DNA from: Litoreibacter albidus
GTDB taxonomy: Bacteria; Pseudomonadota; Alphaproteobacteria; Rhodobacterales; Rhodobacteraceae
DNA: 64,000 nucleotides
Direction: 5' to 3'
Assembly: GCF_900107015.1 (NCBI RefSeq)
Contig: NZ_FNOI01000008.1
Span: 1-64,000, forward strand
The position numbers and the translations under genes were made by a program. The notes beneath the pieces were generated by a model, which was not told where the DNA came from, did no database searches, and worked only from the letters and a program-made list of their open reading frames with translations. Positions 353 through 16,825 of the stretch are shown here, one piece after another; position 1 is the first letter of the stretch, and each line of letters opens with the position of its first letter.

Positions 353-418
353 ATGCCGAGAAGCGGCTGACCGAGAGCTAGACGCGAGAGATAGCCACCG
401 CAGCGCGGGGCATTCGCT

Positions 419-637: not shown

Positions 638-652
638 CTACACCACAGAAAA

Positions 653-3600
653 TTAAACGGTTTCCGACGGTTTCTCTGAAATGTCGCGGGTCACGGCAAT
701 TACTCTTTTACCTTCAGGAAGCCCATCGTTCACTTCGGCACACTTGGCATCTACACGTTCTATAAGGCCTTCAAAGTCAACTGGTTGGCCGTCTACATTT
801 TTGCGGAACGCACTCCGTCTGACTTTCTTTGTCTTCTTATCCTTCTCAACTTTTCTAGGGCGAGCAGCATTCACGAGAACATAAATGCCGGTGTGGGATG
901 AAGGCTCAAACAAATACTGCTTTGAGAGCTGCTTATCAGGAGTGTTGACCAGCTCATCCCCAGTCCAGTGTTTCATATCGGCAAGCTTAATCTCAACCGA
1001 TACCTTTCCCAACGCATCAGCTCTTGAGTGGATTCGGAGATCAGGCCGCTTCTCACCTGCGACTTCTTGCTCCCTGATTACCGTGTAGTAGCGCTCACCC
1101 GCGTCTCTGAGGCGAGCGGCCAGCCAATTTCTCAGATCGCCTTCTTTCGCTTCGCCACGCCGGAAGAATGCGCTTTCATCGTCATCGGAAGTGTGCAGTT
1201 TTTCGAGCAGTGTTTTTAGGTGCATTTGGCAGAGTTTCCTAAACTCTTCCACAGTCGCCGGTGGCTTGGATTGATCATTCAGAAATTGAATTGTCTCGTG
1301 AATTGAGAGTTCGGGTCTCCTCCCCGCCCCTCGTTTCATCAGCTCGATCTGATGTAAAAACGTATCTCGGTAGCTCGAAAGCTCCTTGGACTGAGCCAGT
1401 CTTCCAAATGCAATAACAACATCAGGCGTTTGAAACGCAGACAGCATATTGGTGTAGTTTCGCCGGTTCGTCTCGGCGTGGTCCTCTTTTCCCGGCGAGT
1501 AGACACTTTCGTGCTTCACATCCTTCTCAGGTGGCCATGCCAAGTACGATGCCCGAACCAGCCACTCCAGCAGAATTGAATCTCTCTCATACTCGCTTCG
1601 CACATGTTCTGAACCTTCTCCCAGAGCAGGCTTATTACCTTCGCGACCTAGATATTCGAAGAAGAGCGCTTTCTGTCCTGCGCTATGCAGATCTCCAAAT
1701 GTTGAGGCTAAAACATGTTTGGCGGCGTGTGAGTTCGCGTTCATTAGTCCGTCAAGCCAGACCCATGCCTCTCGGAAATCGAAACGGGTCCTCGCCGCCC
1801 GGTAGCCTGAGACAAGAAACCTGGAAAGACGGTTTCGCTCGACAGTTGGCGCTCGAGCTACAATGTCTAGGCAGAGCATTCTATCGCGACGGTTTCTTGG
1901 AAGACCTCGCATCATCATCCGCAGAAGCATAGGAGCTACCAGATTTCTCATCTCCAGACCAGAGTAGGCGATTTTGCTCAAGCAGTCCGATGCATGCTGG
2001 TCGCCGTCGCCGCGCGCAGAATCGAAGTCTACTAACAACGCATATTTGACCTCGGAGAAAAATTGGCTCGGGAAACTGACCGCCAATTCCTCGACCCACT
2101 CAGGAAAGCCGTTCAATTCGTGGAACGCGTAACGGAAGGCCTTTCGCACAAGGTTGGGGTCAACAGGCAGTTCGCCAAACGAGTAATCGAGATTCACGCC
2201 TGCCAGGCCTATGTGGCCAAGATATGTTCGTCGCTCAGAATAGCTCGTATCATTTATCTTCCAGTATTGCCGCAAGCCATTACTGAAAAGTTGGGCGATC
2301 TCGGACCCATACTCCTCATTGATCGCGCGGATTGTTCCATTTCCAAGATCATCTGGAGCTCGTTCAAACAGCCAAATTGCATTGCTGTTGTCGAACTCAC
2401 CAGCGGAAATCTCCTTGCGGTTGCTAGTGATGAACTTTCGATTGTTTCGGGCTGTTCTCCAAGACTGAAAGGCTTCCTTCTTGCCCTGGAACCACCTTTG
2501 GGTGTCATAGCGATATTGATTTTGGAAGCGTGATTTTGTTCGAAGAAACCAACCACGGATGCCGAATTGCCGTCGTTGATCCTCGTTCCCATATTTCCTG
2601 AGATACCCCCGGAACACACCTAGCGCATAGTCATGATCTTCTCCCCTGAGTTTGGCCAGAATGGTTTGTGCCAAGTCGAGTAGAAATGCCCGCTCGGACT
2701 GATCGGTAGCTTCCGAAGCAAGCTCGCAGTAGTGAGACACATCGGATTGATCGAAGACCTCTCCGTTTTCCTCTTTTTCATCAAACTCCAAAGGGTAGAT
2801 CACTCCAAACGGGACGCGGTGCTGCTGAACACGATCAGAGAAAAGAGCGACTCGTCTTTGAATGAGAGCGTGTTTGACTTCGGGCCGTGCCCGGAGTCTA
2901 TCGGCCAACCGCGTCGTCGGTGCCTTTCGTCCGAATACGTCAATCCTGTCGTCTTTGCCCATCGCCAACTCAACAGCGTTGAGCAAGTCGCTGTCGTCAG
3001 GAGGAACATCTTTATCATCAACTAGTTCAGACGCTAGTTGGATGATGGCTGGCACAAACCTTTTGTATCGTGCTGAAGCATCAGGCATGCGGTATCTGTT
3101 TTCGGCTCGGCCAGAAAATGTAAAACGCAACAAAATGGATAACCAAGTTCGCTTCTCAGGCCTCGACAAGCCTTCAAAAAGTTCGATCAAATACTGGGAT
3201 GTCGCGGACGAATAGTTTGAGCGCTCTCTTTGAATTCTTGAAAGAATGTTAATTCCGTCGAGCAGAGTGGCTTCGCCAAAGCCGTACTTCAATGCCTTCA
3301 ACTGGAACATGTTCCAGTTCGGCGCAGAATCAGAATCCTCTGCGTCCGGTGGTGTGGCCTTAAGGGCTTCTGACAATACATCAGCTCGGTAACGCAGGTC
3401 TCCCATCTCATCTAGGGCGGCGCACGCTTCTGCTTTGCTTCGATAGCCTAAACTTGCATCTCCAACAAAGCCCGCCAGCTTTGGAGCAAGTGGCTCCATT
3501 TGACCAAAGCGCGAGACCTCAATCAAAAAATCTGTCAATTCTGGAGAGCTCGAATTGTCGAGTAGTTCGCCGACTACCGACCACAATTCGGGATGTGTGA

Positions 3601-5023
3601 AGCGCTTGATGTCGTCGTGATAGAACCATTCGCCCCTAAATCGAAGGTGGTCATAGAGGCGCGCTTGGTGGCGCAGGGCGACCTCCTTGTCACCGACGGA
3701 CAATGATTTCGGGTCTCCCGTTTCAATGAGAAGTGCAGGCCTTACATTTGCCACAACGGTCTTCGCTGCGCTGTTCAAACTGGCTAGCCAACCCATTACA
3801 TGTTCAGTCGATTGTGGGATCGATCGCTGTCCCAAGCCCTCGGCAAGTAGTGGTGCGATTGTGTCCTCAGAGTTCGCCCTAGCTCGCAAGCTCTCGTCGA
3901 AATGCTCAGCTGCAAGGAAGTCCCGAATCTCTCGGTGCGCGAACCTGATACGCCCCCCGACAGAAGGCTGGAAGAGCCCGCAGGCAAGCAACTCGCGAAC
4001 TTCTGGCGCTGTCCATGAGTCTACGTCGGTGGACAGGACCTGAGCGGCATTGGTCGCATCACCTCCAGGCAACGCATGCACGGAAAAATCCTGTTTGCCA
4101 GACAAAACTACAAAAGCTGCAAGCTTGCCGGCAGCTTTCCTAGCTCTGATCAGATCAATGCTAAGTCTATCTTGACTTTCAGACCTGCCGAATAGCCGCC
4201 ACGTCACCAAATCACGCATTACTTGAAGTCGAGACTTGAACACTTCCTCAGGGGGGCGACCTTCATTAACAGCCTTTTTCCAAACATCCAAAAAAAGATG
4301 CGCATCCAACGGTTGCTGGATGAGCCCAGTAGAAAGATTGGCATTCACGGCGTTGATAAAGTCCGAAGGGTTCACACCGCGGGAATCTGCAAGTTTCTCG
4401 ATGTCCTCGTTCGCTAGCGGGGCGAGACGGTACATCTTGAAACTAGGACCGGAAGCCTCCAAGTCTTGCTCAGCATGCCTTGTCCTTCGAATGAATTGAC
4501 TGAGACGTCTTGCATCCCCGTCTCCGAGCCACTCACTGGGGCGACTTGTGACCACTACATGTATAGGCGCGTTTCGTCGCCCAATTTCGCGCGACACGAC
4601 TTCGAGGGCTTTCTCTAGAGCGCTCTCATTGCTTGATGAAGGCAGGCGAGCTTCGTCAAGCGCGTCAAAAAACAGTACCCCACCCTTTCTTGTGCGCTTC
4701 CATCTTTCGAACTTCTCGCCTTGCTCTTCGAGCTCAAAGTCGAATGCGCCAGATACCGAACCATCTTGAAGCGCTTCCAGCCGAAACAGAAACGCATCTT
4801 GCCCCGCCGCTATCATGCGCGTCACTTGATGTTGAAGCTCTGTAGTTTTGCCAGAACCAGCAGTGCCTAGAAGTACAGAAATGTCATTTGAGAGTATTTC
4901 ATCCCACGTGCTACCTTTATTTTGGCTGGCCAATGACGCCCAAATACTTTCTGGCTCGCTTTCGAAATCACCAGTAGTGACTTCCGCAAATCTTCGGGAC
5001 AAGGAGACATAATCAGTGGTCAA
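653..5023 (-). CDS. STAND/NACHT-like P-loop NTPase with C-terminal PD-(D/E)XK nuclease domain, 1456 aa
   Basis: Probable anti-phage or restriction effector. The N-terminal NTPase has Walker A GTAGSGKT (residues 53-60), Walker B VLFFDALDEAR (about 116-126) and a sensor-like VVVTSRPSEW (about 157-165), the layout of STAND/NACHT ATPases. A winged-helix-like segment with FAHREIRDFLAAEHF follows. About 900 mostly helical residues come next and could form a repeat or sensor array. The last about 150 residues carry a PD-(D/E)XK nuclease signature: D1328 in RPDLRI, then E1344-x-K1346 in VEIK, then KQLSKQY. The described Avs proteins carry their effector at the N-terminus, so a C-terminal nuclease is a different order. 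The gene lies 47 bases downstream of the Mrr-like gene in one minus-strand operon. The DNA is visibly more AT-rich than the core genome. NTPase and nuclease calls are firm; the defence role is inferred. Confidence 0.85.
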   Translation of the reverse strand: MTTDYVSLSRRFAEVTTGDFESEPESIWASLASQNKGSTWDEILSNDISVLLGTAGSGKTTELQHQVTRMIAAGQDAFLFRLEALQDGSVSGAFDFELEEQGEKFERWKRTRKGGVLFFDALDEARLPSSSNESALEKALEVVSREIGRRNAPIHVVVTSRPSEWLGDGDARRLSQFIRRTRHAEQDLEASGPSFKMYRLAPLANEDIEKLADSRGVNPSDFINAVNANLSTGLIQQPLDAHLFLDVWKKAVNEGRPPEEVFKSRLQVMRDLVTWRLFGRSESQDRLSIDLIRARKAAGKLAAFVVLSGKQDFSVHALPGGDATNAAQVLSTDVDSWTAPEVRELLACGLFQPSVGGRIRFAHREIRDFLAAEHFDESLRARANSEDTIAPLLAEGLGQRSIPQSTEHVMGWLASLNSAAKTVVANVRPALLIETGDPKSLSVGDKEVALRHQARLYDHLRFRGEWFYHDDIKRFTHPELWSVVGELLDNSSSPELTDFLIEVSRFGQMEPLAPKLAGFVGDASLGYRSKAEACAALDEMGDLRYRADVLSEALKATPPDAEDSDSAPNWNMFQLKALKYGFGEATLLDGINILSRIQRERSNYSSATSQYLIELFEGLSRPEKRTWLSILLRFTFSGRAENRYRMPDASARYKRFVPAIIQLASELVDDKDVPPDDSDLLNAVELAMGKDDRIDVFGRKAPTTRLADRLRARPEVKHALIQRRVALFSDRVQQHRVPFGVIYPLEFDEKEENGEVFDQSDVSHYCELASEATDQSERAFLLDLAQTILAKLRGEDHDYALGVFRGYLRKYGNEDQRRQFGIRGWFLRTKSRFQNQYRYDTQRWFQGKKEAFQSWRTARNNRKFITSNRKEISAGEFDNSNAIWLFERAPDDLGNGTIRAINEEYGSEIAQLFSNGLRQYWKINDTSYSERRTYLGHIGLAGVNLDYSFGELPVDPNLVRKAFRYAFHELNGFPEWVEELAVSFPSQFFSEVKYALLVDFDSARGDGDQHASDCLSKIAYSGLEMRNLVAPMLLRMMMRGLPRNRRDRMLCLDIVARAPTVERNRLSRFLVSGYRAARTRFDFREAWVWLDGLMNANSHAAKHVLASTFGDLHSAGQKALFFEYLGREGNKPALGEGSEHVRSEYERDSILLEWLVRASYLAWPPEKDVKHESVYSPGKEDHAETNRRNYTNMLSAFQTPDVVIAFGRLAQSKELSSYRDTFLHQIELMKRGAGRRPELSIHETIQFLNDQSKPPATVEEFRKLCQMHLKTLLEKLHTSDDDESAFFRRGEAKEGDLRNWLAARLRDAGERYYTVIREQEVAGEKRPDLRIHSRADALGKVSVEIKLADMKHWTGDELVNTPDKQLSKQYLFEPSSHTGIYVLVNAARPRKVEKDKKTKKVRRSAFRKNVDGQPVDFEGLIERVDAKCAEVNDGLPEGKRVIAVTRDISEKPSETV

Positions 5024-5070
5024 AAAAACTCTCTCGCTATTGCATCACTCAAGTGATCTTGCTTCGAACT

Positions 5071-5652
5071 TCAACCGCGCTTGCGTACTGGTTTGAACCA
5101 ATCTGCCAATGGGTTGATCCGGTCATCTGTAATGGTCGAAATTGTGGTTATATTGCCCTCAGACCGTATCATTTGCCCTGCGAAATCTGGCAGATCAGGT
5201 GGATAGCTTGCTTCGGACAACGGCTCTTTGCTGCGAGTGACATAGGTCAGTTTGCCGTCCACGAAGATTACAAGTGCAATACTGGCAGACGAGGCAAACT
5301 CAACAGCTCCTCTCTGAAAGCCCGAGGTTGAAAACACTATGGACTTTTGCGCTCCAATTTCTTGGGCCTTTGCGTGCACGCCCAAAATGACGTCTCTTTC
5401 AACCGGCCGTCCACGTCTTTTACATTCGACCAGGACGCAGACCTTGGCGCCCCCGAGGACTTCGAACTCAACCCAACCATCAATGCTGTATTCACCACTA
5501 CTTCCTTGTATCTTTTTCAAGTGAGAGACGGAAAACTCCAGAAGTCCGGCTCCAGCAGATTTCAGCCAAGAAATAACCTGTTTCTCATACTCTTCTGGCG
5601 TAACCTCAACGGGGTTCTCGGGATTCCACTTCGGGCTGTTCTTTTCTTTCAA
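5071..5652 (-). CDS. Mrr-like restriction endonuclease, PD-(D/E)XK fold, 193 aa
   Basis: Small nuclease of the Mrr_cat type that should cut DNA, perhaps modified or foreign. After a short helical N-terminus (EEYEKQVISWLKSAG, about 20-34) come the catalytic D58 in YSIDGW and E76-x-K78 in VECK. The typical Mrr helix/strand FSTSGFQRGAVEFA follows at about 107-120. The about 70-residue C-terminal tail is not part of the core. There is no separate winged-helix DNA-binding domain as in E. coli Mrr. The only start that keeps the full domain is TTG at 5652, just after the TAA of the upstream 66-residue ORF in the same frame. It sits between the DUF3800 and NTPase genes, probably co-transcribed. Family call strong, target unknown. 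Confidence 0.87.
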   Translation of the reverse strand: MKEKNSPKWNPENPVEVTPEEYEKQVISWLKSAGAGLLEFSVSHLKKIQGSSGEYSIDGWVEFEVLGGAKVCVLVECKRRGRPVERDVILGVHAKAQEIGAQKSIVFSTSGFQRGAVEFASSASIALVIFVDGKLTYVTRSKEPLSEASYPPDLPDFAGQMIRSEGNITTISTITDDRINPLADWFKPVRKRG

Positions 5653-5655
5653 CGC

Positions 5656-5856
5656 TTAATACTCGTCATACTCGCCGGTCCATTGTTGCTCATAGGGTCT
5701 CGCGTTTGAGTTGTAATGACAAGGACAACATACGACCGCTATTCGGCGCATTCTACCAAAGTCAGGTACCAGCCGGTTCAGCACAGAGCTGCCTTGACCT
5801 AAGTCACCGCTCGAATTTTTGCATTCAATGAATACAACCCAAGTAGTTTTCGCCAA
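5656..5856 (-). CDS. Hypothetical 66-aa protein in frame with the Mrr-like gene
   Basis: The ORF uses a TTG start inside the last 32 bases of the DUF3800 gene and ends in TAA. Only one codon separates that stop from the TTG of the Mrr-like ORF in the same frame. The peptide begins with WVVFIECKNSSGD, which resembles a nuclease-type ECK strand, and has a CCPCHYN cluster near its end. I recognise no family. It may be a small translated linker gene, the N-terminal part of a longer Mrr protein split by a nonsense mutation, or non-coding. The tight spacing in an otherwise gapless operon is the main argument for it being real. Confidence 0.4.
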   Translation of the reverse strand: MAKTTWVVFIECKNSSGDLGQGSSVLNRLVPDFGRMRRIAVVCCPCHYNSNARPYEQQWTGEYDEY

Positions 5857-6607
5857 AACGCTCCATCACAACAGGTGCGATCCGCTCGTTGACGCTCTCA
5901 TCAATGAATAGGCCCCAAGGGTAAACGTCTACGTTCGCAAGATCGAAATCATCTTTTGGGTTTCGCTTGTTTTGGCTGAGGAATGCGTAGCGGATTCCGG
6001 CCCACATCTCGAAGCCCAACTCAACTTCCAAGCCATCGTAAATGCTGTCGCCCGGTAAATCGAGCACCACCATTTTGGACAAAACTCCAAGAGCTTCTAA
6101 CAGCATGATACTGCACGTATGGGCCATGATGTCGGCCAGTTGGATACCCATTACCGCTTTGGAATCTTGTTCAAAGTAGAAGTTGCAGCCTGCAAAATCT
6201 TCGTCTCGTGCAGTTAAAGCCTCGGCCGCACTTTTGTGCTTGAAGAGACCTTCATCAAAAAAGACCTTATGTTGCCCACCCTTGAGCTGGGGATGCTTCA
6301 GCGCGTTACGCAAAAGCGCCAGGGAAGCGGGCCCTAAGTTTTTGGTGTCATCTGCGCTATCTACCACGCACAAGGCCATTTTGCAGTTTCGCGTGATGAA
6401 ACTTTTTAAACTGTTCCGCAGCGCTTGAAGATCATTGTCATCTTTCATTGACGCTGAAGACTTGAATTCGAACGTACTCGGATCGAAGCCGTGCTTGAGA
6501 AAAAGGGTGCCCATTTCTTCTGCGGGATCCGCATCACATATTGCAAATGCTGCAAGTGAAAATCCGGATCTATGGTGTTTACTGTCGTCCAAAAATAGAT
6601 AGGCCAT
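5825..6607 (-). CDS. DUF3800 family protein (predicted RNase H-like fold), 260 aa
   Basis: The protein shows the DUF3800 hallmarks: an N-terminal strand ending in acidic residues (LFLDDSK, D7/D8), an E47-x-K49 element in FEFKS, VFFDEG (D118) and the late QLADIMAH (156-163). These spaced acidic residues suggest a metal-dependent RNase H-like nuclease, though the biochemical function of the family is not settled. Its ATG overlaps the TAA of the HNH gene by one base (TAATG), which points to translational coupling in the island operon. DUF3800 genes are often seen on mobile elements and in defence contexts. Family call firm, role inferred. Confidence 0.85.
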   Translation of the reverse strand: MAYLFLDDSKHHRSGFSLAAFAICDADPAEEMGTLFLKHGFDPSTFEFKSSASMKDDNDLQALRNSLKSFITRNCKMALCVVDSADDTKNLGPASLALLRNALKHPQLKGGQHKVFFDEGLFKHKSAAEALTARDEDFAGCNFYFEQDSKAVMGIQLADIMAHTCSIMLLEALGVLSKMVVLDLPGDSIYDGLEVELGFEMWAGIRYAFLSQNKRNPKDDFDLANVDVYPWGLFIDESVNERIAPVVMERFGENYLGCIH

Positions 6608-7506
6608 TACTGCTTAAAACAATTCTCTCTGTGCCAGGTTACAAACTCAGTCCTTGGCCGGTTGGCGAGGCGATCCGGCACCAAGATCTTGCCGGATGAG
6701 TTGATCATCGATGTCACGGCTTCGATGTCGTTGCTTTGACGGGAAACCAGAATTGTCAGGTCGTCAGCCAATCCAACGAGACCCCGATCAAACATCCAAT
6801 GCGCCGTTCCAGAAAGGGCGAGCCCGTTGCTGACGATGTCGGGTCCGTCATGCTCGACTGGTCTGATATGAGCGGCTTCCACTTCAGCTCGGCCACCGCC
6901 ATTTATCAGACGTAAACCAGTGATGGCGCAGCGCTCGCCGTAGGCGCGCAGGATGTTCTTTCTGAAATTACGATCGCGAACCGCCCGGTTGGTCAGTTGG
7001 TTGACGCGTTCCCGTGCGGGCATGTGTTGGAAAGGCGTTTGCGCGTCCTGAAAACCTGGCAGGTGCATCGTGTCGCCCACGCGAGGCAGGATGTCCTCAT
7101 CTCGACCAAGTCCACGTTCGACGATTCGGGCAAAGTCTTCAGCTGAAAGAGTTCTTACTGCAGCCTGCGCGCGTCCGGATATCTTGCCTTGATCGTTCAG
7201 CAATCCTCTTTCGATGATTGAATTATCGTCCCGGAATGAAACTGGGTCGCCGAAATCAAGATACGTTCCCGGCTCAATCACCGCCAAAAACATGTCCTGC
7301 TTCCTTGGATCCGGAATGATTTCCTGAACCTTAGCGACAGCAAAGTACCCTTTGGTCTCTTTGACTTTGCTTGGCTCCAGGTAGACGATCCAATCCCCTT
7401 CGCACTGTTGGGCACGAGAGAGGTATTGCTTGGGAAACTGATACCGCTCCGAGGGAATGTCGTCGTAGATCGAGTCGCTGCGATGGATGAAGATACCGAA
7501 GGCCAT
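6607..7506 (-). CDS. HNH endonuclease with N-terminal reader-like domain, 299 aa
   Basis: The C-terminal half is an HNH nuclease of the HNH_2 type: C193 in CAITG, the catalytic His in AAHIRP (H213), N227 in SNGLAL and H236 in THWMFD. It should cleave DNA in a metal-dependent way. The first about 120 residues form a separate beta-rich domain (GDWIVYLEPSK, KGYFAVAKVQEI, DFGDPVSF). I read it as a PUA/ASCH- or EVE-like fold, of the sort used to read modified bases; this is a fold guess from pattern, not a match. The gene starts four bases after the small membrane protein gene and overlaps the DUF3800 start by one base, so the three are one transcript. A modification-dependent restriction role is possible. 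Confidence 0.86.
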   Translation of the reverse strand: MAFGIFIHRSDSIYDDIPSERYQFPKQYLSRAQQCEGDWIVYLEPSKVKETKGYFAVAKVQEIIPDPRKQDMFLAVIEPGTYLDFGDPVSFRDDNSIIERGLLNDQGKISGRAQAAVRTLSAEDFARIVERGLGRDEDILPRVGDTMHLPGFQDAQTPFQHMPARERVNQLTNRAVRDRNFRKNILRAYGERCAITGLRLINGGGRAEVEAAHIRPVEHDGPDIVSNGLALSGTAHWMFDRGLVGLADDLTILVSRQSNDIEAVTSMINSSGKILVPDRLANRPRTEFVTWHRENCFKQ

Positions 7507-7510
7507 CGGA

Positions 7511-7810
7511 TCACCCGCGTTGAAGACGTTCCAGTTTTCGATCGGCCGCGCGTAAGGTCAGCACCGCACCTGTCAAAAATGGAAGTGCCAAGCCTGCTGT
7601 GGCGATGGCAAAAATCATGATGGCGGCCAAAACCGAGTATTCGGTGGGCTGTTGCGCCAACGATAGTTGGCCGAAACCAATCAGGTAGAACACGCTGGTT
7701 CCTAGGAAGATCAGGTAAAGCGGATCAAAGGGTTCAATCACCTCACGACGAGTGCGCTCCAAGACCGAATTTCGCAACATGTTCCAGCGTTTGCTTGCCT
7801 TGTTCACCAA
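7511..7810 (-). CDS. Small two-helix membrane protein, 99 aa
   Basis: No family is recognised. The protein has a basic N-terminus and two hydrophobic segments, about 31-50 (LYLIFLGTSVFYLIGFG) and about 60-87, so both ends probably face the cytoplasm. The track-style start is TTG at 7810; GTG at 7807 is equally good. It begins within a few bases of the XRE stop and ends four bases before the HNH start, so it is an integral part of the operon. In defence modules such small membrane proteins can be effectors, immunity partners or anchors, but nothing here decides which. Confidence 0.65.
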   Translation of the reverse strand: MVNKASKRWNMLRNSVLERTRREVIEPFDPLYLIFLGTSVFYLIGFGQLSLAQQPTEYSVLAAIMIFAIATAGLALPFLTGAVLTLRAADRKLERLQRG

Positions 7811-7811
7811 A

Positions 7812-8234
7812 TCATTCCCTTACCAACTCGATCCATGTGTGCACGTCGTCATCCGTCACTTCACGGCCTTCGACATGCGATTGATACCAACGAGCCACGA
7901 TGGCCCCGCGCTTTTCGCTTTTGATCTTCATGCCCTCTTCGGTGAGGTGCTGATCCAGTGAGCTTTCGATGTGTTTGAGGGCATCGAAATCATGCCCCGC
8001 CCGAATGGATTTGGTGCCGAGTAGCAGCCAGGGCACGTCCACCTCGAACCGTTCACCCATCGCGACCAAGGCTTCTACAGGCATTCCGCGCTGGCCCTTT
8101 TCGTAGCTGTGATACGCGCGCGGTGAGACACCGATAGCTTCCGCCATGGCCGCTTGTGAGAAGCCGATTTCATTGCGAGCAATGGTGAGACGAGCACCCA
8201 TTGCAGCAAAAAGATCAGCAGGTTTCTGCGGCAT
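7812..8234 (-). CDS. XRE-family transcriptional regulator, 140 aa
   Basis: A helix-turn-helix DNA-binding protein of the lambda-Cro/XRE type. The HTH spans about residues 10-65, with IGFSQAAMAEAIGVSPRAYHSYEKG as its core (split here for length: FSQAAMAEAIGVS, then YHSYEKGQRG). The C-terminal half is helical and may dimerise. I chose ATG at 8234, which begins just before the conserved helix. A longer reading frame to 8348 adds 38 residues of non-conserved sequence over the divergent promoter region. It heads the nuclease operon and faces the excisionase/integrase genes, so it probably controls both directions and its own expression through sites in 8235-8389. Confidence 0.88.
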   Translation of the reverse strand: MPQKPADLFAAMGARLTIARNEIGFSQAAMAEAIGVSPRAYHSYEKGQRGMPVEALVAMGERFEVDVPWLLLGTKSIRAGHDFDALKHIESSLDQHLTEEGMKIKSEKRGAIVARWYQSHVEGREVTDDDVHTWIELVRE

Positions 8235-8310
8235 CTGAATTTTCCAATTGACCACTTCGCCGAAATTCGCGAACTTTGCAAAAAATGACGAACATTTACA
8301 GTTAATCACA

Positions 8311-8325
8311 TCTGACCACGTCAGA
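8311..8325. promoter_or_regulatory. Candidate operator, perfect 6-3-6 inverted repeat
   Basis: TCTGACCACGTCAGA is a perfect palindrome with 6-base arms and a 3-base centre, located in the 155-base gap between the divergent XRE and excisionase genes. That is the expected place and size for an XRE dimer site controlling the island genes. A second, weaker symmetric element (TTCGCGAA) lies at about 8267-8274. Binding is inferred. Confidence 0.5.
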
Positions 8326-8389
8326 AGGTGCAGAACAAGCGATTCCATGCGTGTCGCTGATTCAACTTAAGCGGACAAGGACGACTGAA

Positions 8390-8737
8390 ATGGCAGAGAC
8401 CAACTATTCAGACAGCTCTCAGATCCTGGGGCTTGGGAAAACGCCCGCGCAGTGGGTCGAAGTCATGGCCGGGATGGGGATCGATATTTCGGAACGCACC
8501 TTGCGCGAACGCGCCAATGAGACGGGTGCATTTTATCGCCTTGGGCGAACCATGCTGATCACCCCCGCGCAGATTGATACGATTTTTGAAGGAGGCCAGT
8601 CATGCCGCTCCAAATTTACAAGAGGGGCCACGTTTACTGGGCCAAGGGGTGGATCGAATACAACGGCAGGCCAATCGCCGGCCCATACCGGCGAAGCACT
8701 AAGGCATCTACAGAAGAGGGCGCACGGGACTGGATAA
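8390..8737 (+). CDS. Excisionase-like HTH protein (recombination directionality factor candidate), 115 aa
   Basis: The segment at about residues 15-65 (TPAQWVEVMAG, ISERTLRERANETG, FYRLGRTMLITPAQIDTIF) looks like the winged-helix fold of Xis/AlpA-type proteins that bend att-site DNA. ATG at 8390 gives the compact form; an upstream in-frame ATG at 8351 lacks support. The frame continues 136 bases into the integrase gene in another frame. The overlapping tail (GGSNTTAGQS, ALRHLQKRAHGTG) seems protein-like rather than random. It is transcribed with the integrase and divergently from the XRE gene. Confidence 0.72.
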   Translation: MAETNYSDSSQILGLGKTPAQWVEVMAGMGIDISERTLRERANETGAFYRLGRTMLITPAQIDTIFEGGQSCRSKFTRGATFTGPRGGSNTTAGQSPAHTGEALRHLQKRAHGTG

Positions 8738-9696
8738 ACCATGAGACCGAACGGCAGATCCGTCGCTATGTCGTGGGCGACGAACCGAGCAAGACGTTCT
8801 CCGATGCAATTATGCTCTACAACGCGTCCCCAAAAGCAGCGAAGCAGTTGATCCCGATTGTCGAAGCAATCGGCGACCTGTCGCTGGGCGCAATTTCTGG
8901 TGCACTATTGAAGAGCCTTGGACCAAAGCTGAAACCCAAGGCGTCGACCGATACCTGGTGGCGCGAGATCGTGACGCCAGCGAGTGCGGTGATCAACAAT
9001 GCGCACGAGCTGGAGGGGACGCCGCTAATCCGCGTGAAGCCCTACGACAAGTTTGAGCGGATCGCTCAGGACAAGCGGCGTGGGAAGCTCAGCCGCGTGG
9101 AGCGCACGCCAGCCGACAAGGAATGGATCGAAGCGTTTTGCCGTGCGGCAGATCCATACAATGCAACACTGGTCCGTTTCATGTTTGAAACGGCTGCGCG
9201 GATTGATCAGGCCGTATCGTTGGAGCCTGACGACCTTCGGCCGCATGAAAACAAAGTCCGAGTGAAAGCTCAAAAGGGGCACCCGGAATGCTGGATTACT
9301 GTGTCGCCTCAAATGATGGACGAGCTTCTTGCGTTACCGCCGAAACGCCCGAAGAACCGGAAGACTGGCAAACTGATGAAGGCGCGTGTTTTCGGCTATG
9401 GCAGTTCCACCGGTTACAACACGCGCTGGAAGACGATCTGCCAACGCGCGGGCATTCCGTACCTGTCGGCGCATCCCGCCGGTCGGCATGGGTTCTTCAC
9501 TGAGCTAGTCGTGCGCCAAGGTGTAGACCCGGTCACCGCAGCCAAGGCTGGCGGCTGGTCAGACCCAAATTTGCCCATGCGGATCTATGCCCACGCAGAG
9601 ACCGACGAGGCCGACATCAGGGCGCGTTTTCGTACAAACCACGTACAGGATGACGCTGTACAAATACCCAACTCTAAGAAATCACAAAAGGAATAG
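8602..9696 (+). CDS. Tyrosine site-specific integrase of the island, 364 aa
   Basis: Phage-type tyrosine recombinase that would insert and excise the island at a tRNA gene. Catalytic residues in order: R200 in ETAARIDQA, K225 in VKAQKGHPE, the HxxxRH box HPAGRH (291-296), W319 in GGWSD, and the nucleophile Y329 in MRIYAH. An N-terminal SAM-like core-binding domain precedes them. ATG at 8602 has a good GGAGG ribosome binding site seven to ten bases upstream, inside the excisionase frame. The gene ends 14 bases before the tRNA-derived att sequence at 9711, the usual position for a tRNA-targeting integrase. The family call is secure and the gene looks intact. Confidence 0.95.
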   Translation: MPLQIYKRGHVYWAKGWIEYNGRPIAGPYRRSTKASTEEGARDWINHETERQIRRYVVGDEPSKTFSDAIMLYNASPKAAKQLIPIVEAIGDLSLGAISGALLKSLGPKLKPKASTDTWWREIVTPASAVINNAHELEGTPLIRVKPYDKFERIAQDKRRGKLSRVERTPADKEWIEAFCRAADPYNATLVRFMFETAARIDQAVSLEPDDLRPHENKVRVKAQKGHPECWITVSPQMMDELLALPPKRPKNRKTGKLMKARVFGYGSSTGYNTRWKTICQRAGIPYLSAHPAGRHGFFTELVVRQGVDPVTAAKAGGWSDPNLPMRIYAHAETDEADIRARFRTNHVQDDAVQIPNSKKSQKE

Positions 9697-9710: not shown

Positions 9711-9757
9711 CCCTCCTAAGGGGCAGGTTACTGGTTCGAATCCAGTCGGGGCCACCA
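9711..9757 (+). other. Island attachment site: 3'-end fragment of tRNA-Arg(CCT)
   Basis: The sequence holds an anticodon loop CTCCTAA (anticodon CCT), variable region, a complete T arm (ACTGG, TTCGAAT, CCAGT), the acceptor 3' strand CGGGGCC, discriminator A and encoded CCA. The matching 5' acceptor GGCCCCG and the D arm are absent upstream, and the 5' side of the anticodon stem does not pair. It is therefore a partial duplicate, not a working tRNA. Its orientation says the intact tRNA gene lies at the other end of the island, to the left of this window. Confidence 0.88.
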
Positions 9758-9761
9758 TTTC

Positions 9762-10661
9762 TCATGGGCGTTCCAGGATGTGGTCAGGCTTGATACCGGA
9801 TTTGGCGATGGCGCTTTCCACGTTTTGGCCTGCGAAAAATCCGTAGCCAGCTATCAGGGCAGAGGCGACGCCAGCGTTCTGCGCTCCAAGGATGTCGGTG
9901 TGTAAGCTGTCGCCGACCATCAACACACGTGCGCGCTTAATCTCGGGGGCGAGCCGTTGGAACGCCAGATCGTATATATCTAGGAACGGCTTGCCGAAGA
10001 AACGTGGCGTGACGCCGGTCCCATTCGCGAGGCGATGTGCGAAGTGGCCCGGTTCAATAGAGAAACCTGTCTCACGGGGGGCGACGATGTCGGGATTTCC
10101 GACCCAGACAGGGCGCGGGCGATCCCTTAGCGCGGCAGTCAACAGGGCTTGGCGATGCTCCGTCCAAACGGCGCTGCCGATCATCAGAAAGCCGTCGACC
10201 TGCGTGTAGATGGCAGGATCATCGTCCAGATAGGTCACGTCCAGCCCTTCGAAGTCCTGCAAGCCAGCACTTGGCGTGGCCATTAAGCCCCATTTCATAG
10301 GTCCGGCTGGTTGCGGCGCCGCCAGAAGGGCCGCGCGGCTGGTTATGACATCTTCGGGTGCAAAGCCGTAGCCAAGGCGATGGTACTTTTCCATCAACGT
10401 CGCATGCGGGAAGCCCGCGGCGTTGGAGACCACTATAACACGTTTCCCGCGCGCTTTGAGGCTGGCGACCCGCTCAACGACGCCGGGAATTGCGGTCTCT
10501 CCGATATTCAGGACGCCAAAGGCATCTAGGAAGAACGCGTCGTAGCTGTCTGCAACGTCGTCCAGTGTTTCCGAGCGAGTGGCGGCTTTACGCCCAGTTG
10601 CAGGACTCGGCAGGCGGTGCCGAACCGCCTCATAGGCCGCGAAGGCGGTTTCAGTATCCAT
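9762..10661 (-). CDS. HAD-superfamily class IIA phosphatase (TIGR01459-like), 299 aa
   Basis: A sugar- or glycerol-phosphate type phosphatase of the NagD/pyridoxal-phosphatase branch. HAD motif I is DAFGVL (in AFFLDAFGVLNIGE), motif II is VIVVSNAAG, the Lys motif is GKPFLDIY and motif III is VLMVGDSLHTDILGA. ATG at 10661 begins five bases after the preceding permease stop, so it is the last gene of the phosphonate-type transporter operon. A longer frame to 10703 would overlap that permease. It probably releases phosphate from whatever organic P compound the transporter brings in. The substrate is unknown. Confidence 0.85.
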   Translation of the reverse strand: MDTETAFAAYEAVRHRLPSPATGRKAATRSETLDDVADSYDAFFLDAFGVLNIGETAIPGVVERVASLKARGKRVIVVSNAAGFPHATLMEKYHRLGYGFAPEDVITSRAALLAAPQPAGPMKWGLMATPSAGLQDFEGLDVTYLDDDPAIYTQVDGFLMIGSAVWTEHRQALLTAALRDRPRPVWVGNPDIVAPRETGFSIEPGHFAHRLANGTGVTPRFFGKPFLDIYDLAFQRLAPEIKRARVLMVGDSLHTDILGAQNAGVASALIAGYGFFAGQNVESAIAKSGIKPDHILERP

Positions 10662-10666
10662 GCCGC

Positions 10667-11482
10667 TCAAATGATTGCCCCGCGCACTTTTGCCGACACC
10701 CATTCACTGATCACCACGGCTGCGAGGATAACCAGCAGGATCAGGCTGACTTGCGGCCACGCCAGAACATTCAGGGATGCCGACAGTTGCAGGCCGATCC
10801 CACCGGCACCGACAAGGCCCAGCACGGTCGACTCCCGAATGTTGATGTCCCAGCGGAACACGGCGATGCCCGCGAAGGCTGGCATGATCTGCGGCACGAT
10901 ACCGAACGCCATAACCTGCCAGCGGGACGCACCCGTTGCGGTGATCGCCTCGACTTGGACGGAATCAATCTCCTCAATCGCCTCGTATAGCAACTTTGCG
11001 CAAAACCCGATCGATCGTATCGCGATGGCGACGACGCCCGCAAAGACGCCGGGGCCGATGATGGCGATAAGCAGAAGCGCCCAGATCAGAGAGTTGATGG
11101 ACCGTGTCGCGACGATGATGAACAGGGCGACGGGCCGGATGAAAAGTTTGGAGGGTGTTGTATTGTGCGCCGCTAGAAAGGCCACCGGCACGGCCAAGCA
11201 TAGCGAGATCAGCGTGCCCAGCGTCGCGATGTTCAACGTGTCCCAGATGGGGCGACCCAACTGGGTGATGTATTCCCATTTTGGTGGCGTTGCGCGTGAC
11301 CAGATATCGCCTGCAATGCGCGGTGCATCCCACACGAAAAACCACGTGGTGGAATTTGATATCTGCATCCAGCAGTAGGCGAATACGGCCAACCCGCCGA
11401 GCCACATCGCGGAGTGTGCCAGGGTTTGTTTAAACGTGCGCCGGTGCCAGACGGTGGTGTCGTCGTGTTGCGTTACAGGCAT
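10667..11482 (-). CDS. phnE: Phosphonate-type ABC transporter permease (second PhnE), 271 aa
   Basis: Inner-membrane permease of a PhnE-type importer with about six transmembrane helices. The EAA-type loop that contacts the ATPase reads GASRWQVMAFGIVPQ, and it is followed by [15 protein letters not shown], a hallmark of PhnE. Its ATG overlaps the stop of the first permease by one base (TAATG), so the two are translationally coupled and probably form a heterodimer. Paired PhnE genes are common in alphaproteobacteria. Confidence 0.92.
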   Translation of the reverse strand: MPVTQHDDTTVWHRRTFKQTLAHSAMWLGGLAVFAYCWMQISNSTTWFFVWDAPRIAGDIWSRATPPKWEYITQLGRPIWDTLNIATLGTLISLCLAVPVAFLAAHNTTPSKLFIRPVALFIIVATRSINSLIWALLLIAIIGPGVFAGVVAIAIRSIGFCAKLLYEAIEEIDSVQVEAITATGASRWQVMAFGIVPQIMPAFAGIAVFRWDINIRESTVLGLVGAGGIGLQLSASLNVLAWPQVSLILLVILAAVVISEWVSAKVRGAII

Positions 11483-12294
11483 TACTGGACCCTCGCGCGA
11501 ACTATGCCGGAGATATATTCCAGCGCCATGACGATCACGATGATCAAGATAAGGATCGCGGCAGCGGTGTCGTACTCATACCGATCGAAGGCTGTATTCA
11601 GAGTAGCCCCGATCCCACCGGCACCAACCAGCCCCAAGATAGCACTTTCACGGAAATTGATGTCCAAGCGGTAGATGGACAGGCCTACGAGCCGCGGCAT
11701 GACCTGCGGTTGTACCCCGTAGTTGACCCACTGCGCCCAACGCGCACCGGAGGCACGAATGGCCTCGACCTGAACGCGGTCCATGCTTTCGATGTCTTCG
11801 GCGAGCAGCTTGGACAGGAAGCCGATGGTGGCGAAGCTAAGCGTTAAGAAACCCGCAAGCGGGCCAAAGCCAAAGATTGCGACCAGCAGGATCGCCACGA
11901 TAATTTCTTGCAGCGCACGGCTGATAGCTACGATGCCACGACAGATCAGGTAGACTGGTAGCGGCGCGATGTTGCGTGCCGCGCCTAAACCGATGGGGAT
12001 AGAGATCAAAATGCCAACGACGGATGCGGCCACCGTGATGATGATGCTTTCCATCAGCCCGCCCCATATGTCGGAGGACCGTGAGGTGAAGTCAGGACTG
12101 GTGAACGCCAGCACGAACTGCGCGCCGCGATCCAGCCCCGCGTAGACGCGGGCCCAGTTGATGTCGATCGTCATGTAAGCGGCGATCAAATAGGCAAAAA
12201 ACGCGATGACCAAACCCCACCGTAGGATCGGGTTTGATATGAAGGGCGGCCGCTTCCACGGCTGGCCAATTACGGTGTCTAGATGCGTGCTCAC
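11482..12294 (-). CDS. phnE: Phosphonate-type ABC transporter permease (first PhnE), 270 aa
   Basis: Integral membrane permease with an N-terminal helix (about 27-45) and the PhnE-type core. It contains [18 protein letters not shown]-like loop sequence ([18 protein letters not shown]) and [15 protein letters not shown] near the C-terminus. It is clearly paralogous to the next gene. Its ATG overlaps the phnC stop by four bases (ATGA). Together with PhnC and PhnD it imports phosphonate, phosphite or a phosphate ester. Confidence 0.92.
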
Positions 12295-15175: not shown

Positions 15176-16825
15176 GTGATCCAAATCATCGGAAATCTAG
15201 CGGGTGCGATCGCGCTTTTGTTGTGGTCCGTCAGACTGGTGCGCACGGGTATAGAGCGTGGCTTCTCCGGTCCGCTGCGCACGGGTGTGCGGCGCGCGTC
15301 CCAGAACAATGCGACCGCCGCCGGAAGCGGCCTGATCGCTGCGATTGCGATGCAGAGTTCCACCGCGGTTGCCATGCTGGTTGCCGGATTTGTCTCCGCA
15401 GGAGCATTGCCGCTGGGCAGCAGCCTTGCCGTCATCTTGGGCGCGGATTTGGGGTCTGCTATTGCCGCAAGAATTTTGCTAACGCCGATCTCTGCCTTGG
15501 TCCCGCTGCTGCTGGTGATCGGTGTCACCTTCTTTTTAAAAGGACGCACAAGACGGGCAAAGCAATCGGGCCGCATTGTGATCGGTATCGCATTGGTGCT
15601 GACCTCATTGTCGATGATCCGCGTGGCGACTGCCCCGCTGCAGGACAGTCAGGCGACAGAAGTTGTGTTTTCCTATCTCGCGCAGGATCTATTGACGTCG
15701 TTCCTGATCGGGGCGGTGTTGGCATGGGCCACGCATTCAAGTGTCGCAACAGTCCTCGCGGTAGTAGCGATGGCGTCGGAAGGCCTGCTGTTGGCACCAG
15801 TTGCGGCAGCCATTGTTTTGGGGGCCAACTTCGGTGGGGCGACCATTCCGGTCTTGCTTACCCTAACAGGCACGCAGGCGGCGAAATGCGTGATGCTCGC
15901 CAATCTGTTCATACGTGGCGGCGGCGCATTGCTAGCGTTACTTGCCCTTCTTCAATGGCAGGCGTTGATTGCATTGCTTGGGTCAACCGCCGCTGTGCAG
16001 TCGATCAATTTGCACCTCGCGTTCAATGCGGTCGTCCTCTTTGCAGGTATGGTTTTTATCCGTCCCGCATTGCACATCGTCTCCGCGGTTTTACCAAAAG
16101 CAGCCCCGTCCAAGCCGCGCCGTATTAGCGCGCTAGACCCGACATTAACCGACCTCGACCGCGCGCTGGCCTGCGCCGCGCGTGAGGTGCTGGAGATGGG
16201 GGAGCAGGTTCACGGTATGCTAACGCCCGTTCTTGGGCTGTTTCGCGATTGGGATGAGGATGTCCTGACCGCTATCCGCGAGAGCGAGGATGAAGTTGAC
16301 CGCATGCACTTCGAGGTGAAGCTCTATATTGCGCGGCTTCAGGAGGGGGTTTTGACCGCGGACCAAGCACGCCGTGCGATGGATATTGCGAGTATCTCGA
16401 ACCACCTTGAGGACGCAGGGGACCAAGTCTCCACAAATCTGATCGACTTCGCCCAACGCCTCCATGCGAACGGGCTGTCGTTTTCGGATGAGGGCTGGCG
16501 CGATCTGTGTGATTTCCACGATCAGGTGCTGTCCAACGTCCAGCTTGGGCTGAATGTGCTCATGACCGGCGACGCGGAGGCGGCAATCCAGCTGGTAGAA
16601 GAGAAAGACCGTGCCCGCGAGGCGGAGCAACGGCTACAAGCCCATCACCTAGATCGGTTGCGTAGTGGTAATACCGCGAGCGTGGAGACCAGCAGCCTGC
16701 ACCAAGAAACCATTCGGGCCCTCAAGCAAGTCAACACCGCATTCACCTACGTGGCCTATCCTATTGTGGAAGCCACTGGTGGCCTGCTGTCGAGCCGCCT
16801 TGCGACACCGGACGACGCATCCTAA
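15176..16825 (+). CDS. Na/Pi cotransporter family protein with PhoU-like domain, 549 aa
   Basis: Inner-membrane phosphate symporter of the NptA/YjbB type. The N-terminal about 310 residues hold two inverted Na/Pi repeats with the characteristic QSSTA motif (IAMQSSTAVAM) and its partner THSSVAT (AWATHSSVATVLA). After about residue 330 comes a cytoplasmic helical PhoU-like domain. The start is a GTG at 15176 with only weak ribosome-binding sequence. It is divergent from deoR-phnDCEE, consistent with a shared phosphorus role. In E. coli the YjbB relative favours phosphate export under some conditions, so direction is open. Confidence 0.9.
   Translation: MIQIIGNLAGAIALLLWSVRLVRTGIERGFSGPLRTGVRRASQNNATAAGSGLIAAIAMQSSTAVAMLVAGFVSAGALPLGSSLAVILGADLGSAIAARILLTPISALVPLLLVIGVTFFLKGRTRRAKQSGRIVIGIALVLTSLSMIRVATAPLQDSQATEVVFSYLAQDLLTSFLIGAVLAWATHSSVATVLAVVAMASEGLLLAPVAAAIVLGANFGGATIPVLLTLTGTQAAKCVMLANLFIRGGGALLALLALLQWQALIALLGSTAAVQSINLHLAFNAVVLFAGMVFIRPALHIVSAVLPKAAPSKPRRISALDPTLTDLDRALACAAREVLEMGEQVHGMLTPVLGLFRDWDEDVLTAIRESEDEVDRMHFEVKLYIARLQEGVLTADQARRAMDIASISNHLEDAGDQVSTNLIDFAQRLHANGLSFSDEGWRDLCDFHDQVLSNVQLGLNVLMTGDAEAAIQLVEEKDRAREAEQRLQAHHLDRLRSGNTASVETSSLHQETIRALKQVNTAFTYVAYPIVEATGGLLSSRLATPDDAS

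Follow-up and report, generated by a model that had tools for sequence, protein, structure and literature searches.

Do the closely spaced genes at positions 653-7810 of contig NZ_FNOI01000008.1 of Litoreibacter albidus (family Rhodobacteraceae; assembly GCF_900107015.1) form a single antiviral operon, or are they separate pieces of cargo? The window considered here comprises the first 64,000 nucleotides of this contig, called C11 in what follows. An initial annotation had proposed one new multi-part defence operon and, as a second option, two systems side by side. Comparison with relatives speaks for the latter: quite probably, the gene row is not one new anti-virus operon but belongs to a transferable element on which two defence-like cargo blocks lie next to each other. 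To the first block we assign an HNH endonuclease-like protein and a DUF3800 protein, to the second an Mrr-like endonuclease and a HyoA-like NACHT protein. The two blocks recur apart and probably act independently.

The borders of the DNA shared with relatives carry this reading. Two samples were searched, 295 genomes of the family and 367 of the class. With genomes G148 and G362, common DNA extends from 5825, the DUF3800 stop, to beyond the integrase; its start lies at 6553 in the case of G035 and at 6791 in that of G211. G244 shares 6607-8348, starting at the HNH stop, and contig L073 of G256 matches continuously from 652 to 5640, which covers Mrr and the NTPase only. Shared DNA breaks between the blocks, which therefore have separate histories. 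The co-occurrence search suggested by the initial annotation found HNH with DUF3800 in three other family genomes and Mrr with the NTPase at one of 11 informative relatives, and the full set nowhere else in the material searched, which leaves the single operon unsupported. Compared with PADLOC, the gene set matches no named multi-gene system and yields scattered single-gene matches only: HNH for the HNH gene, mREase_IV and PDC-S02 for Mrr, PDC-S68 and mad8 (weakly) for the NTPase, and RmrA, HTH_VI, capH and PDC-M69A for the regulator, with none at all for DUF3800 and the small membrane protein. Thus, of the outcomes named in advance as fatal to the operon, homologues not found together and a set already named, the first describes the set as a whole; the second applies to the family of the NTPase alone, and there below the curated cut-off.

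On the minus strand, six open frames run from an XRE-type regulator (7812-8348; Pfam HTH_31/HTH_3) to the NTPase. The regulator probably starts at 8234, giving 140 amino acids, a start judged from the length of its relatives. A small protein of 99 amino acids follows (7511-7810), its membrane character read by eye, then the HNH endonuclease-like protein (6607-7506; 299 amino acids; HNH_2, 36.9 bits), the DUF3800 protein (5825-6607; 260 amino acids; PF12686, 25.8 bits, cut-off 21), the Mrr_cat endonuclease-like protein (5071-5652; 193 amino acids; PF04471, 41.5 bits, cut-off 21) and the HyoA-like NACHT NTPase (653-5023; 1456 amino acids; NCBIfam NF058534). The families first proposed hold above the Pfam cut-off for XRE, HNH_2, DUF3800 and Mrr_cat; in the NTPase, NTPase-type Pfam domains give sub-cut-off matches only, and the NCBIfam HyoA model matches nearly the whole length. 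The packing described earlier is likewise confirmed in part, with gaps of 1 base between XRE and the membrane protein, 4 between the latter and HNH, -1 between HNH and DUF3800 (a TAATG overlap) and 47 between Mrr and the NTPase. The gap between DUF3800 and Mrr measures 172 bases, unless a 66-amino-acid open reading frame (ORF) overlapping the end of DUF3800 (5656-5856, minus strand) is counted. Searches of this frame against Pfam, PADLOC and NCBIfam gave nothing at E <= 1, its 59-residue part had no match in plasmids, and the frame lies mostly outside the DNA shared with G148 and G362, since that DNA ends at 5825. With no support from family and plasmid searches we dropped it from the gene count; it is probably not a gene, or is a remnant. 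A scan for sigma-70-like promoters found 0, against 5.7 expected in shuffled sequence, and is uninformative.

The earlier view that the genes sit on a tRNA-targeted island proved correct. Beyond the regulator and divergent from it, on the plus strand, lie an excisionase-like gene (8390-8737), so called from its place and from weak sub-cut-off Pfam matches, and, overlapped by it at the start, a tyrosine integrase gene (8602-9696; 364 amino acids; PF00589, 42 bits). They are followed by a 47-base 3' part of tRNA-Arg(CCT) (9711-9757, plus strand), the end repeat of the element, of which 42 bases are identical to the intact tRNA-Arg (L086). Because only this 3' part is present, ARAGORN reports no tRNA in the window. 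The intact tRNA-Arg(CCT) stands at the end of another contig of the same genome, C4, followed by a gene of 322 amino acids that Pfam does not recognise, one that Pfam assigns to MobC/NikA, and a relaxase gene; this relaxase is 87% identical to that of the sister element L021, which itself passes the Pfam Relaxase cut-off by a narrow margin.

The two contigs appear to be neighbours. Homology of C4 to L021 stops at L021 position 16287, and that of the window starts at 16288, where positions 355-418 (minus strand) are 84% identical over 64 bases to L021 16288-16225, the end region of the relaxase gene. Between the abutting homologies, on the window side, lies part of an insertion at the contig edge (1-354, plus strand; ORF 103-315 matching rve_2/rve_3 of Pfam), which we take to be of IS3 type. 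We infer from this arrangement that the element continues across C4 and C11, with the insertion between them and apparently in the 3' end of the relaxase gene. As judged from its sequence, the window thus holds part of an integrative mobilizable element in tRNA-Arg(CCT), whose chassis reads tRNA, 322-amino-acid gene, MobC, relaxase, cargo, (membrane protein) and XRE, then, in the opposite direction, excisionase-like gene, integrase and tRNA 3' repeat. On the chromosome side, a HAD-like gene and two ABC-permease-like genes, named by eye, flank the insertion site (9762-12294).

Islands that carry defence genes, integrative mobilizable elements among them, are a known kind, which this one resembles in its tRNA insertion, integrase, relaxase, MobC and exchangeable defence genes. 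It differs in that none of the open-licence papers listed was recognised as describing its tRNA-Arg(CCT) lineage, and the available sections of PMC13386836 name no such element.

Sister elements separate chassis from cargo. The integrase is found in 17 of the 295 family genomes at E <= 1e-60, our own included, and the excisionase-like homologue lies beside it at 16 of these loci, the exception being G240. Intact tRNA-Arg(CCT) was located at ten loci (own C4, G148, G362, G010, G149, G126, G289, G037, G046 and G240). At 11 of the 17 loci XRE is more than 70% identical, and six of these 11 are without HNH (G010, G126, G289, G037, G171 and G046); it is only 32-35% identical in G227 and G300 and missing from G149, G379, G256 and G240. 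Membrane-protein homologues of 30-41% identity also occur without HNH (G010, G126, G037, G171 and G046), in a listing of matches with at least 30% identity or an E no higher than 1e-10. Because relatives keep XRE with unrelated cargo, we assign it to the chassis, and, more weakly, the small membrane protein too.

The cargo differs between sister elements of one chassis. HNH covers at least 94% of its length at five of the 17 integrase loci (own, G148, G362, G035 and G211, the G211 copy carrying a stop), and in G240 the HNH match is a piece of 41 residues and the integrase a fragment. Family tests of the cargo covered chosen ORFs in sets of 10 proteins (7 of them cargo or cargo-side), 9 (5 of them sister cargo), 10 and 7, and left out G379, G256, G300 and G211. 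In G148 the cargo includes KAP/PDC-S49 and Dsr1, in G362 PtuA and PtuB (Septu) with Avs3a/b, in G035 a two-component hybrid, and in G149 PDC-S06, PDC-M03A and an IetA-like protein. G126 carries Mza proteins (PADLOC), G227 Mza-like genes named by eye together with a methyltransferase and Vsr, and G046 an EruA-like NACHT protein of 1367 amino acids (L133:5980-10083; 940 bits, cut-off 1000). The viral contig L117, where HNH occurs together with a window-type integrase, has PD-Lambda-4. PADLOC matched none of the proteins tested from G037 (2), G171 (1) and G289 (1).

Some of these sister loci merit a note in their own right. The Mza-type sets at L127:8138-16281 (PADLOC) and L128:3855-12070 (by eye) come from two genera and share this element lineage. 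The cargo of G010 (L125:3182-9187) comprises a C5 methyltransferase, a protein of 833 amino acids for which PADLOC gave nothing at E <= 1e-8 and a gene of 309 amino acids, possibly an unnamed system. In G037 (L131:3081-6541), two cargo genes of 330 and 823 amino acids, without PADLOC match at E <= 1e-6, are candidates for unknown defence genes. In G244 (with tRNA-Phe) and G369, HNH and XRE have other integrase-like genes as neighbours; these two integrases, named by eye, align at 25% identity (E 1e-13). The trio of XRE, membrane protein and HNH at L065:9929-13377 is next to an integrase-like gene of another kind, close to tRNA-Phe, and may move between element types.

Turning to the first block, HNH matches in 89 of the 295 family genomes at E <= 0.001; 56 of the matches span nearly the full protein, with identities of 41-100%, and at least 67% in 13 of them. 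All 18 aligned relatives carry HNH_2 (Pfam), and H213, N227 and H236 are invariant among them. Residues 169-299 match VcaM4I (6yex) by profile (E 1.1e-7), and also TagI (6ghs). The best Foldseek matches of a low-confidence structure model are VcaM4I, YTH domains, THYN1 and the EVE protein 2eve. VcaM4I is an EVE-HNH enzyme that binds DNA containing 5-methylcytosine or 5-hydroxymethylcytosine, according to the available part of PMC7897488, and EVE-HNH type IV enzymes are also mentioned in the accessible text of PMC7641849. Like VcaM4I, the HNH protein may be a modification-dependent restriction enzyme of the EVE/YTH-HNH type, as its C-terminal HNH profile match and its best, if weak, fold match would suggest. 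Unlike VcaM4I, it adjoins a DUF3800 gene, and its relation to EVE is unsupported by profile comparison. Pfam EVE had no match in the 18 relatives, and an EVE relation by profile comparison was dropped as not clearly above an unrelated control.

DUF3800 has matches in seven of the 295 family genomes, five at full length; at E <= 1e-20 it appears in one of the 367 class-sample genomes, our own. The partial copies are an 18-codon stub in G035 and an end piece at a contig start in G294. The top six Foldseek matches of its model are all RNase HII/H2 (E 2.1e-4 to 0.036, TM-score 0.33-0.40 by query length), and the protein is possibly RNase-H-like. An RNase-H fold has been reported for DUF3800 in the part of PMC10910872 available, which concerns DUF3800 and TPR-DUF3800 proteins of Cas12a2-linked loci. 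These resemble our protein in the Pfam family and in the RNase H relation, whereas the window DUF3800 adjoins HNH and has no Cas12 or TPR partner among the window genes listed.

It is possible, though we would not favour it, that HNH and DUF3800 function as a pair, forming a modification-dependent restriction system of two nucleases. DUF3800 adjoins HNH at four of its five full-length loci in the family sample (window, G148, G362 and G386), with the TAATG overlap in three and, in G386, a reversed order and a gap of 125 bases. However, three of these four pairs come from one element lineage, and among the 13 near-full-length HNH loci of at least 67% identity four have a full-length DUF3800 and nine do not. 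DUF3800 is also found away from HNH, next to Gabija-type genes in G380, on a Tritonibacter plasmid, in two viral contigs and, by annotation, on Rhizobium and Agrobacterium plasmids; three of the seven plasmid records with DUF3800 were examined. In one viral contig (L124:4069-4833) it accompanies a Mu gp16-like gene named by eye, and may be a prophage passenger.

The second block is dominated by the NTPase, residues 8-1442 of which match positions 1-1421 of the 1430 in NF058534 at 599 bits (E 1.6e-179). Three of its relatives score 566-592 bits. As our protein remains below the curated cut-off of 1200 bits, we call it HyoA-like, not HyoA. A Walker A motif (residues 51-60) and a Walker B motif, DALDEA (120-125), are followed near the C-terminus by a PD-(D/E)XK-type motif, RPD to D1328 and VEIK to K1346, and all three are kept in 12 of 12 aligned sequences, an alignment that leaves out the truncated copies L020 and L096. 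The C-terminal part is accordingly a predicted PD-(D/E)XK-type nuclease by its motifs; its sole Pfam signal is one sub-cut-off DUF2333 match (E 0.19) in one of five proteins. A similar combination of NACHT ATPase and PD-(D/E)XK-type nuclease is described for bNACHT25 in the available part of PMC12169576, there with the nuclease as N-terminal effector. Compared with these STAND (signal transduction ATPases with numerous domains)/bNACHT proteins, the order in our protein would be reversed, NACHT first and nuclease motif last. It resembles HyoA, a NACHT domain-containing antiphage protein, in its near-full model match and in that most of its relatives lack Mrr, and differs in score and in having an Mrr neighbour itself. 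Among the papers listed in our literature search, none was on antiphage HyoA, a name that stands there for other things, and EruA is there an unrelated E. coli regulator; the accessible sections of the DefensePredictor paper name no Hyo gene.

Does Mrr belong to this protein? The Mrr protein shows the catalytic domain of Mrr-type endonucleases and, by eye, a D...ECK motif; it differs from them in being short, with no second domain recognised, and in adjoining a NACHT gene. A true two-gene system of the nucleotide-binding leucine-rich repeat (NLR) type, with Mrr as second nuclease or modulator, seems doubtful to us. In its favour, window and G256 have the two genes in the same order with a gap of 47 or 48 bases, at 66% and 80% protein identity, and DNA homology covers the pair. 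Yet both loci may reflect one transfer event, and 10 of 11 informative relatives (38-78% identical) have no Mrr match, the remaining one being L088, which appears to be G256; nor does Mrr stand beside the truncated plasmid copy L020 or the distant relatives L028 and L029. L096, without upstream DNA, was not counted. Ten of the NTPase relatives came from a scan of genome contigs with two peptide patterns and do not represent all that exist. Plasmid copies occur in Phaeobacter inhibens and Rhizobium phaseoli, among 64 plasmid records with a match, four of which were examined, two being broken by insertion sequences or truncated. Mrr homologues are found in five of the 295 family genomes, only G256 giving a strong match besides our own; they appear in six plasmid records, in two of which, on examination, the annotation names no NACHT or NTPase neighbour, and give no match in viral contigs.

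Several points weigh against an element with two independent blocks and against the roles given to its proteins. The spacing of XRE, membrane protein, HNH and DUF3800 is what one operon would show, the tRNA repeat is imperfect (42/47), and L073 has only 398 bases beyond Mrr, so that an upstream partner would not be visible there. The structure models of HNH and DUF3800 are poor (mean pLDDT, the predicted local distance difference test, 45.4 and 58.7), and the best HNH fold match has an E of 1.5e-3, none reaching 0.001. Profile comparison (hhalign) of the HNH N-terminal part with EVE gave probabilities of 0.9% and 2.7%, the unrelated control 1.4%. The NTPase falls at half the HyoA cut-off, and its C-terminal part has no supporting Pfam or PDB profile, the nuclease being predicted from its motifs.

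Very unlikely in our view is a decay of the cargo genes into passengers without function. The insertion apparently in the relaxase 3' end, the stop in the G211 HNH match and the DUF3800 stub of G035 would fit it, but the window cargo frames are open and of about the length of relatives, and the HNH and NTPase motifs are kept. Least credible of all, and dropped because borders and partners differ among relatives, is a single XRE-controlled system in which HNH, DUF3800, Mrr and NACHT proteins act together, membrane protein included: the genes do share a strand, all gaps but the one of 172 bases lie between -1 and 47, and the HNH, Mrr and NTPase families suit defence, but the full set is seen in no other genome searched and its blocks recur apart, with shared DNA breaking between them.

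We now propose how the two side-by-side blocks might work, every functional step being inferred. In the HNH protein, an EVE/YTH-like N-terminal domain would recognise a modified base when phage or plasmid DNA enters the cell, and the HNH domain would then cut that DNA, as in type IV restriction. DUF3800 could serve as an RNase-H-like helper nuclease whose substrate is either the cleavage product or an RNA-DNA hybrid. In the second block, the long middle region of the HyoA-like protein would sense a phage product, and the protein would assemble by way of its NACHT ATPase, whereupon the C-terminal PD-(D/E)XK-type domain would cut DNA and lead to abortive infection. Mrr would be an optional neighbour, acting either on its own as a type IV enzyme or in an accessory role.

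More speculatively, and with rather low confidence, the tRNA-Arg element lineage could be a platform for the exchange of defence genes. A semi-fixed first slot would hold the EVE-type HNH and DUF3800, two nucleases of which one cuts modified DNA and the RNase-H-like partner processes the product; a free second slot would repeatedly take up genes of NLR-like or STAND-like type (Avs3, HyoA-like, EruA-like) as well as others, Dsr1 among them. If so, restriction and abortive-infection layers would travel as one unit.

The locus illustrates how closely packed genes on a mobile element can look like an operon where the DNA is probably stacked cargo. What emerges is a family of defence-cargo elements, with slots that hold known and candidate defence genes. 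HNH with DUF3800 and Mrr with the HyoA-like protein are two candidate gene pairs and would make simple test cases; in the second, the predicted order, NACHT first and nuclease last, contrasts with NLR-like proteins that carry an N-terminal effector.

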